Shown in pieces: positions 4,341 to 6,942 of a DNA stretch of 39,744 nucleotides; the stretch's first letter is position 1; each line of letters starts with the position of its first letter. The position numbers and the translations under genes were made by a program. The stretch comes from Gemmatimonadota bacterium (lineage in GTDB: Bacteria > Gemmatimonadota > Gemmatimonadetes > Longimicrobiales > Gaopeijiaceae). The notes under the pieces were generated by a model, which was given only the letters and a program-made list of their open reading frames with translations, searched no databases and was not told where the DNA came from. The DNA is taken from assembly GCA_007121455.1 (NCBI GenBank), contig SKKN01000067.1, forward strand, positions 1 through 39,744, in the 5' to 3' direction.

Positions 4341-4808
4341 TCATCCCCCGTGATCCCTTATGGCCCGCCGGGCCTCCATCTCCTGGGTTTTCCGCTTCAG
4401 CTTCTCACGCTTGTCGTGCAGCTTCTTCCCCCGTCCGAGGGCCAGCGTTACCTTCGCCTTCCCACGGCGGAAGTAGATGTCGAGAGGGACGAGGGTGAGG
4501 CCCTTTTCCTCCACCTTGCCGATGAGCCGCCGGATCTCGTCCCCGCGGAGGAGGAGCTTGCGGGTCCGGGTCGGATCTCCGTTCCACCGGTTCGCCTGCT
4601 CATAGGGAGCGATGTAGAGGCTGTAGAGCCAGACCTCCCCGCCCTCGACCCGACCGAACGCGTCCTGGAAGCTGACCTTGCCCTCCCGGAGCGACTTCAC
4701 CTCGGGTCCCTTCAACACGAGCCCGGCCTCCATGGTCTCGAGCACCTCGTACTCGTGCCGCGCCTTCCGGTTGCGGGCTACGACCCGTCTGCCCCCTTCC
4801 TCGGCCAT
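4341..4808 (-). CDS. smpB: SsrA-binding protein SmpB
   Basis: A 155-residue protein that binds tmRNA and brings it to stalled ribosomes for trans-translation. Conserved segments are NRKARHEYEV at residues 13-22, GLVLKGPEVKSLREGK, LYIAPYEQAN and LVPLDIYFRRGKAKV, followed by a basic tail (GRGKKLHDKREKLKRK) that inserts into the ribosome. Length is normal. It lies 12 bp after the BrkB-transpeptidase gene. I saw no tmRNA gene (ssrA) in the window. Confidence 0.97.
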   Translation of the reverse strand: MAEEGGRRVVARNRKARHEYEVLETMEAGLVLKGPEVKSLREGKVSFQDAFGRVEGGEVWLYSLYIAPYEQANRWNGDPTRTRKLLLRGDEIRRLIGKVEEKGLTLVPLDIYFRRGKAKVTLALGRGKKLHDKREKLKRKTQEMEARRAIRDHGG

Positions 4809-4820
4809 CCGATCCCGGCC

Positions 4821-5492
4821 TCAGTAGAGGAGGACGGGGGTCCCCACCTCGACGAGGTGGTAGAGCTCCCGGGCCGCCTCGTTCGTGAGGCGAATGCAGC
4901 CATGGGAGATCCGGCGGGCCTCCGGATCCGGATCGAGGAGCAACTCCGGCCGATCCGTCCCGTGGATTGCGATGCCGTCTCCGAGATAGAGGGCCGTGGT
5001 GCCGAGAGTGCCGGGAATCCGACGCGAGGAATGGTTCCTCGCCGGGACGGGAATCCCGCGCTGCACGAAGTACCAATCGGGGGCGACCCACACCGGGTCC
5101 TTCTCCATCCGATGGACGCGCATCACGCCGACGGGGGTCGTGAAGGTCCACTCCTGCCCGGCTCCGGCGAGCTGGAACCCGTGCCCCGTCCCGGCGGGCG
5201 CAGACCAGATGATCCGATCTTCCTTCGCGACGAAGACCCGATTCTCCGCCAGATGGACGATCACGTACACGCCCTCGTAGTCGATCAGGGGACGATCGAG
5301 CGTGAGTTCGCGCTCCAGAACCCGATCGGAAAAAACCACCTCGCCGTTTCCGTTCGTTCCGTTCGTGGAGTAGCTCTGCCCGTTGGTGGAGAGACCCTGG
5401 GCAACGGCAGCACCCGGGGAGAGGAGAAACGCCAGGAGGATCATCGAGATCGGTCCGGCCTTCAGGCCGGCGCCCCTTTCATTCACTCCCAT
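4821..5492 (-). other. Possible nested reading frame: free L,D-transpeptidase from an internal start
   Basis: The ATG at 5490-5492 is codon 306 of the fusion and begins a 223-residue in-frame product. Its N-terminus is a textbook signal peptide: basic n-region, hydrophobic ISMILLAFLL core and AVA cleavage site. It is preceded by AAGGAGA (5499-5505) with 7 bp to the ATG. The cell may therefore make both a membrane-tethered and a released periplasmic enzyme. This is inference from the start signals only. Confidence 0.5.
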
Positions 5493-6407
5493 TCGCCGTC
5501 TCCTTCGCTTGCCGTAGACGTGGCCGATCAGGCCGCCGAGGATGAACACCAGTGAACCATAATAGATCCAGAAGAAGAGCACCGCGAACGTGGTCAGATT
5601 CCCGTACGCGGTGGAGAAGTCGGCGATCTCCGTCGCATACCACGCAAAAGCCGCCTTCATGATCTCGAAGGTGATCGCGGTGACCGTCGCGGCCACGATC
5701 GAGGTACGGATCCCGGTCCGCTTCACCGGGAGGTACCGGTAGACGAGGAAGAAGAGGACCCAGGCGGAGCCGAGCTCCAGACTGCTCGCTACGAGCCGCT
5801 GTGTGACCGCGGCCCCCCACCCCTCGAGCCCGAGGAGGTCGACACCAAGGTCCCGGACGGCACGCACGCCCACGGTGATCCCGAGGTTGAGAAGCACGAG
5901 GACGCCGCCGACGAGCACGATGAGCGCGTCGAAGAGCTTGCCCTGGACGATCCCCCGGTCCTCGTCCAACTCGAAGACCTGGCGGAGGACGACTCGGATC
6001 GTACCCGAGAGCCGTGTGGAGATCCAGAGGAAGAAGAGGGCCCCCACCACGCTGAAGTTCGCGCTCTCCGCCAGCACCCCTTCGATGAGTCCCCGCACCG
6101 TCTCCTGGAGCTCGATGTCCCCCTCGATCGCGGGCAGGTACTCCAAGAGAAGGGCGAGGAGCACCTCGGAAGGCTCGCCGAGCCTCGCTCGAAGAAGCAC
6201 ACCCGCCAGGCCCACGACGAGAAGGAAGAGCGGGACGACGGCGATCACCACGTTGAAGGTGATCGCCCCGGCCATGAAGAAGAGCTCCGACTTCTCTACC
6301 GCCCGGACGAACTCCCGGATGAACGCCCATGCTCGCTCACGCCAGCTCCCGTCGACGACCTCCTCGGGTGGGGGTCGCCGGCCGCTTCGCATCTCCGCCC
6401 CGGTCAC
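4821..6407 (-). CDS. BrkB/YihY membrane protein fused to a YkuD L,D-transpeptidase
   Basis: One open frame of 528 residues with two modules. Residues about 30-300 form a YihY/BrkB multi-spanning membrane protein: FFMAGAITFNVVIAVVPL, GALFFLWISTRLSGTIR and TFAVLFFWIYYGSLVFILGG are typical. A basic stretch GKRRRRR then meets Met306, followed by a hydrophobic segment ending in AAVAQ that looks exactly like a signal peptide. Residues about 350-528 are a YkuD L,D-transpeptidase domain with the catalytic motif HGT (His482) and ISHGCIRL (Cys504), which would crosslink peptidoglycan or attach proteins to it. The topology works: the extra helix would place the catalytic domain in the periplasm. The GTG start directly abuts the YtxH gene stop; an ATG at 6392 is the alternative. 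A frame-joining deletion or sequencing error is possible but not required. Confidence 0.9.
   Translation of the reverse strand: MTGAEMRSGRRPPPEEVVDGSWRERAWAFIREFVRAVEKSELFFMAGAITFNVVIAVVPLFLLVVGLAGVLLRARLGEPSEVLLALLLEYLPAIEGDIELQETVRGLIEGVLAESANFSVVGALFFLWISTRLSGTIRVVLRQVFELDEDRGIVQGKLFDALIVLVGGVLVLLNLGITVGVRAVRDLGVDLLGLEGWGAAVTQRLVASSLELGSAWVLFFLVYRYLPVKRTGIRTSIVAATVTAITFEIMKAAFAWYATEIADFSTAYGNLTTFAVLFFWIYYGSLVFILGGLIGHVYGKRRRRRMGVNERGAGLKAGPISMILLAFLLSPGAAVAQGLSTNGQSYSTNGTNGNGEVVFSDRVLERELTLDRPLIDYEGVYVIVHLAENRVFVAKEDRIIWSAPAGTGHGFQLAGAGQEWTFTTPVGVMRVHRMEKDPVWVAPDWYFVQRGIPVPARNHSSRRIPGTLGTTALYLGDGIAIHGTDRPELLLDPDPEARRISHGCIRLTNEAARELYHLVEVGTPVLLY
5490..5505 (-). promoter_or_regulatory. Internal Shine-Dalgarno site and start codon inside the fusion gene
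   Basis: Reading the minus strand, AAGGAGA is followed after CGGCGA by ATG. The purine run is made by adjacent AGG and AGA arginine codons, which are uncommon in such a GC-rich gene where CGN codons dominate. The spacing of 7 bp from GGAG is ideal. Confidence 0.55.
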
Positions 6408-6827
6408 CTACGCTTCGGCTTCCCCCTCTGCTCCTTCCTTCTCCACCTCTTCCTTGGCAGCGTCCACGCCCGCCCGGTATGCCGACTTGGACCGCTCCAG
6501 CTTCTCTTCGAGCTCGTCGCGCGCCTCGACCGCGGCGCGGCGCCCCGATTCGACGGCGCCCCGAACCGAGTCGACCCGCTCCCGAACTCCGGCTCGCGCA
6601 TGGTCGATTCGGTCCTCCAGGTCCTCCTGAACCTCCCGGACCCGCTCCCCCGCAGCCTCCCTCAGCTTCGTGGCCCGCTCTTCGATCTCGCGGCGGGTTT
6701 CTTCTCCCGACCGGGGCGCGAAGAGCAGGGCGGCTCCCGCGCCGAGGAGCGCTCCGATCAGGAAGGGACCTACCCCGCTTCCCTGCCGTTCCACCACGAT
6801 GTACGCACCGTCTTCCCGTTCACGCAT
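6408..6827 (-). CDS. YtxH-domain membrane protein
   Basis: A 139-residue protein with one hydrophobic segment, GPFLIGALLGAGAALLFAP (about residues 18-36), followed by RSGEETRREIEE. This is the hallmark YtxH arrangement (gas-vesicle/stress-type small membrane protein). The rest is a long charged coiled coil rich in Glu, Arg and Ala. Function is unknown; family members are often linked to envelope or general stress. I chose the ATG at 6827, which has GAGGAG upstream; an upstream in-frame extension lacks such support. Its stop is immediately followed by the GTG of the BrkB-transpeptidase gene, so the two are probably coupled and both envelope-related. Confidence 0.85.
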   Translation of the reverse strand: MREREDGAYIVVERQGSGVGPFLIGALLGAGAALLFAPRSGEETRREIEERATKLREAAGERVREVQEDLEDRIDHARAGVRERVDSVRGAVESGRRAAVEARDELEEKLERSKSAYRAGVDAAKEEVEKEGAEGEAEA

Positions 6828-6942
6828 AGTCCGGCTCCTCTGTGTTCCCCCGATTGTGGGGGACGTGCACATCTGTCGCCCGAAACCTAAGGTAGTCCAG
6901 GCGTAAACCGGGTACAAGCGATGAGGCGGCCCGGACAGGCTC

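Follow-up and report, generated by a model that had tools for sequence, protein, structure and literature searches.

The cytochrome b/c1 precursor FbcH of Bradyrhizobium japonicum combines a polytopic membrane protein with a periplasmic protein, and its internal signal peptide is cut by signal peptidase; we know of no inner translation start in FbcH. In-frame alternative starts are established in bacteria, with Ribo-RET sets from E. coli and Salmonella and cases that include mrcB, clpB, yebG and others (PMC11005335), and translational coupling of overlapping gene pairs is likewise established (PMC3711429). Here we analyzed brkB-ykuD, a gene in a window of 39,744 nucleotides (the whole stretch of DNA under analysis), in which a BrkB/YihY protein is followed by a YkuD domain. 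Like FbcH, it has a signal peptide with a signal peptidase I site between the modules, recognized here by pattern only and found in 17 of 17 loci; the proteins themselves differ. With the in-frame alternative starts (PMC11005335), it would share one frame, two starts, a Shine-Dalgarno (SD)-like context and N-terminal proteoforms that differ in location. Relative to these cases, the inner start here is the one that ykuD had when it was still a gene of its own, with a different function, before fusion captured it, and the short form is predicted to be a complete secreted enzyme rather than a truncated version of the same protein. The unfused ancestor resembles the coupled pairs (PMC3711429) in its NTGA start/stop overlap (27 of 34 unfused pairs), whereas the fused clade has no stop at this place, so that the second gene would have no reinitiation after termination.

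Both domains pass the Pfam cut-offs of their families, from which the locus differs in its joined architecture. The initial annotation of this DNA knew of no described BrkB-transpeptidase fusion, and our literature search, judged by titles, found no published report of a BrkB-YkuD or YihY-transpeptidase fusion, nor, by title, one on L,D-transpeptidases of Gemmatimonadota. Since the component kinds (inner starts, coupling, a cut precursor) are known and the union of BrkB with YkuD was not found in print, their combination is new. We consider it likely that brkB-ykuD arose from two overlapping genes of an operon and is now an in-frame nested gene with two predicted products.

Layout of the fused frame and its operon

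The two modules lie, as the initial annotation had it, in one open frame of 528 codons. This frame, its parts and its neighbours are as follows, with coordinates in the window and residues numbered from the GTG start:

6408–6917, minus strand: ytxH-like gene, directly upstream of brkB-ykuD in the operon
4821–6407, minus strand: fused frame of brkB and ykuD, 528 aa from a GTG start; the coordinates include the stop
5514–6290, minus strand: BrkB/YihY domain PF03631, residues 40–298, Pfam E 1.3e-38
Residues 53–71, 111–129, 161–179, 205–223, 237–255 and 276–294: six hydrophobic segments of BrkB, from hydropathy
5500–5505, minus strand: AAGGAG, SD-like run before Met306, in codons CGA-AGG-AGA, subject of the selection tests
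5490–5492, minus strand: internal ATG, Met306, putative start of a free enzyme whose unprocessed form has 223 aa
5400–5492, minus strand: predicted signal peptide, residues 306–336, with putative cleavage at AVA↓Q between 336 and 337
Residues 317–335: seventh hydrophobic segment of the long form, inside the signal peptide, from hydropathy
4830–5270, minus strand: YkuD L,D-transpeptidase domain PF03734, residues 380–526, Pfam E 2.8e-22
4896–4898, minus strand: Cys504 in S-H-G-C-x-R, a motif that aligns with its counterpart in 4lzh
4341–4808, minus strand: smpB, directly downstream of brkB-ykuD

The BrkB part scored above the cut-offs of both Pfam PF03631 (133.6 bits vs 33.7) and TIGR00765 (94.5 vs 73.15), and its NCBIfam subfamily is YihY, not RNase BN. 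Six hydrophobic segments precede residue 300, in agreement with the approximately six spans of BrkB/YihY proteins. A structure model built from 13 rows had a mean pLDDT of 60 over the whole protein, too low to use its YkuD half or to search for similar folds; the BrkB helices were visible in this low-confidence model, and only these were used. The YkuD part exceeded the Pfam PF03734 cut-off (80.3 bits vs 23.4), and its motif ISHGCIRL (501–508 region) aligned with VSHGCVRL of 4lzh; relatives with solved structures exist. We take S-H-G-C-x-R to be the catalytic motif and Cys504 the catalytic Cys of YkuD. By domain and motif, the YkuD part is a predicted L,D-transpeptidase, whose activity would be 3-3 cross-linking of peptidoglycan.

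At the joint of the modules, a run of Arg residues (RRRRR) comes first, then Met306, then a hydrophobic stretch and finally AVA↓Q. The purine run with 7-nt spacing that had been described before Met306 is present, with the correction that it lies on the minus strand and reads AAGGAG (5500–5505), 7 nt (5493–5499) and ATG (5490–5492).

Synteny shows that the whole family keeps the operon in the order pgi-ytxH-brkB-(ykuD)-smpB. In the ykuD-only relative L066 (689–1369), a transaldolase-like frame, TalC-like by eye, sits between ytxH and ykuD in the place of brkB, which suggests a replacement of brkB in an operon that otherwise, ykuD included, persisted. The same genome as the window encodes a second, distant BrkB protein without YkuD (L002, G000:C76:45982-46803; 24% identity), and this paralogue was dropped from all comparisons. 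Elsewhere in the window, at 152–627 on the minus strand, four tRNA genes (Thr-GGT, Gly-TCC, Tyr-GTA and Thr-TGT) lie downstream of cysS.

Distribution and history of the fusion

A search of 121 family genomes, of which 90 had any match to the query, returned 19 loci with a fused open frame covering the whole query. When 395 genomes were sampled evenly across the phylum, at least 13 fused genomes stood among the matches listed, all from the same family; the named records are Gemmatimonadota metagenome bins (the nearest fused ones carry the labels CSSed, PLM and LCM), to a large extent identical with contigs already included, and were not counted a second time. The window's genome is the sole genome of its genus in the comparison set. 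For comparison, 40 + 20 loci were fetched from the list of split or single ones. Among the fetched loci, 34, belonging to the family or to one of two sister families, had brkB and ykuD side by side but unfused.

The initial annotation had named a stop always lying between the two modules in homologous loci as the mark of an erroneous joining. The fused frame is carried by 19 of the 121 family genomes, so the joining is not an assembly error, and comparison of the loci indicates that fused brkB-ykuD is a real architecture for the main clade. An assembly or frameshift error, for which one could cite that the genomes are draft assemblies, has a negligible probability: the same joint recurs in the 17 fused loci of the main clade, which span 11 genera and are mostly only about 50–57% identical to the window protein, and this refutes an error for the clade. 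Two singleton fusions, L019 and L020, may yet reflect an error of this kind.

From sequence comparison, the ancestral state in the order is two adjacent genes, brkB and ykuD. The ykuD frame equals the brkB frame +2 in 32 of the 34 unfused pairs, and 27 of the 34, from all three families, have the 4-base overlap NTGA, in which the start codon precedes the stop by one base. On a tree built from 52 pairs (438 columns, LG+C20 PMSF), well supported branches force four state changes, three fusions and one re-split. The main fused clade, with 17 fused loci including the window, has a support of 100/100. Of the singletons, L019 adjoins the unfused L023, and L020 stands beside the unfused L025, L035, L037 and L041. 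That L019 is merely its unfused sister L023 with a slip of one base in the assembly looked unlikely by eye in this single genome, the linkers being dissimilar.

Inside the main clade, L021 is a re-split pair in the pair tree. Single-gene trees, from a short search and with some branches moderately supported, placed two further loci inside the clade: L026, which has brkB without ykuD, in a frame that closes right at the joint and is followed by smpB, and L039, which has ykuD only and belongs to the genus of the fused L013. L045, in which ykuD is cut by the contig end, was left out of the pair tree and of a single-gene tree, and L068 was left out of the YkuD tree. The modules thus appear to have separated three times in the clade (L021, L026 and L039), and tethering looks dispensable because each module also survives alone inside the fused clade.

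The second start in the main clade

The initial annotation had proposed a second start at Met306, and a test of whether this ATG and the preceding codons are conserved across the main clade had a positive outcome. The ATG equivalent to Met306 was present in 17 of 17 loci, and its distance from the end of the BrkB spans did not vary. The linker behind it is variable: at columns +1 to +15 after the ATG, the commonest residue occurred in at most 9 of the 17 loci. Strength of the SD was measured as anti-SD pairing dG and compared with a synonymous null in which the amino acids were fixed and the codons were redrawn from each gene's own usage. The SD before the ATG was stronger than this null (mean z 1.73 over 17 loci; Fisher combined p 3e-6, p-values here being optimistic because the 17 loci are related). 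Individually, 7 of the 17 loci reached p <0.05, and several did not beat the null, L006 and L018 among them, the SD of L018 being weak.

Relative to all 380 codon positions, the ATG ranked first for SD (mean z 1.68, mean dG -8.7 kcal/mol); its direct neighbours took the next ranks, and the best position outside -2 to +2 had a mean z of 0.94. No SD peak was present at the matching place in 20 brkB-only and 14 unfused control loci, profiles for which loci without the regex anchor (e.g., L024, L031 and L034) were left out. Compared to a mean of -2.5 at 103 other in-frame ATGs, the mean dG at the second start was -8.7 (p 4e-10). The mRNA around the ATG was also open: in openness over 48 nt beyond the synonymous null, the ATG ranked top among 94 windows, with a mean z of 1.50 and a positive z in 16 of the 17 loci. 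These comparisons indicate that the second start in the main clade is kept by natural selection.

The statement that AGG and AGA are uncommon Arg codons in such genes held true, AGR making up 21 of the 37 Arg codons that directly precede the ATG vs 53 of 584 elsewhere, but the feature is not specific: at the matching tail positions, AGR accounted for 14 of 32 in brkB-only relatives, and for 2 of 27 in unfused pairs. Enrichment of these codons was therefore demoted as proof of a second start, and the synonymous-null profile was used instead. That the SD-like run and the Met arose by chance, or as a by-product of an Arg-rich topogenic turn with AGR codons, draws on the same AGR-rich tails of brkB-only relatives; we find it scarcely credible, given that the SD peak at the ATG occurs in fused loci only and under a null with amino acids fixed. 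As a separate observation, the brkB-only relatives (L022, L026–L030, L049, L051–L062 and L069) favour AGG/AGA just after the last BrkB span, with no ykuD following.

In an exploratory comparison of related loci, the starts of the fused genes were set against those of 29 of the 34 unfused pairs (start at -1 or +2 of the stop, frame difference 2; L021 was dropped). The SD at the start was -8.7 in fused loci vs -6.4 and -6.3 in two sets of unfused pairs (p 8e-4 for all), and the start codon was ATG in 17 of 17 fused vs 19 of 29 unfused loci (p 0.008).

The independent fusions behaved differently. In L020 an in-frame ATG is present, but its SD is weak (-3.0) and the mRNA is structured, and in L019 no ATG, GTG or TTG was usable near the joint. 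An internal start as a trait of all fusions was consequently rejected; in L019 and L020 a putative second start is not supported.

Export, cleavage and the predicted products

A cleavage-type site after Met306, noted before as AVAQ, is present in the window protein and has counterparts across the clade. A 14-residue stretch with mean hydropathy of 2.2–2.8, followed by x-[A/G]-Q, was found in 17 of 17 loci, signal peptidase sites being judged by sequence pattern. In the window protein, six Lys/Arg occur in the 15 residues between hydrophobic segments six and seven, in keeping with a turn on the cytoplasmic side and YkuD in the periplasm. In 6 of 17 loci, the net charge of the n-region behind Met306 is zero or below, which speaks against a textbook signal peptide in these loci. 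L019 keeps the hydrophobic stretch and G↓Q; having no usable inner start, it would rely on cleavage alone, if the single assembly is right.

Two readings do without a free product of Met306. All YkuD might derive from the fusion, cut by signal peptidase I, with Met306 unused; the cleavage-type site in 17 of 17 loci would suit this, as would L019, which is fused and has no usable inner start yet keeps its hydrophobic stretch and G↓Q. This reading leaves the strictly kept ATG, the synonymous-level SD and the open mRNA unexplained, and we judge it improbable. Alternatively, the seventh segment might stay uncut, so that YkuD is membrane-anchored at BrkB sites in a stable tethered fusion. The topology would permit it (six spans, an Arg-rich cytoplasmic turn, a seventh span and a periplasmic enzyme), and fusion occurred three times independently, but the cleavage-type site in all 17 loci and the threefold separation of the modules in the clade, without loss of the remaining one, make a stable tether very improbable.

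We therefore return to the nested gene with two predicted products. By comparison of the loci, a frame change in one clade joined adjacent, mostly NTGA-overlapping brkB and ykuD, and within the joined frame selection retained the start codon of ykuD along with its ribosome-binding site, the openness of the mRNA and the signal peptide. Ribosomes starting at brkB would make a precursor of 528 aa, in which the six BrkB spans are followed by an Arg-rich turn in the cytoplasm and by the signal peptide as a seventh span, which would put YkuD in the periplasm; signal peptidase I probably cuts this precursor at AVA↓Q, freeing YkuD. Ribosomes entering at Met306 would make a 223-aa preprotein of a free periplasmic L,D-transpeptidase. 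With the stop at the joint gone, reinitiation after brkB termination is impossible, so that initiation at Met306 would have to be direct, on its own SD, and this fits the stronger SD and strict ATG of fused loci. One gene thus probably makes a joined protein and a free enzyme. The initial annotation had offered an internal start or a split by signal peptidase; internal initiation is strongly supported by the comparison, splitting is only compatible with it, and the two are not exclusive. As a rather doubtful extension, there might be three functional species (an uncut tethered L,D-transpeptidase, BrkB cut free and the free enzyme), with the tethered-to-free ratio set by the inner SD and signal-peptidase efficiency, and NTGA-overlap fusion with an inner start might be a general route from operons to dual-product genes.

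The loci form a natural series of rare completeness: unfused overlapping pair, fusion with the inner start kept, fusion without it (L019), re-split pair (L021) and single modules (L026 and L039). The series allows testing how fusion proceeds without losing the second product, and what becomes of a ribosome-binding site once termination-coupled reinitiation is lost. Automated annotation would list the 528-aa protein only, missing the predicted free secreted enzyme. To our knowledge, the function of BrkB is poorly known; operon, overlap and fusion tie it to peptidoglycan cross-linking. In most fused loci (L003–L018), the N-terminus of the predicted mature YkuD is an Asn-Gly-rich low-complexity linker of GGNGGNG-like sequence.
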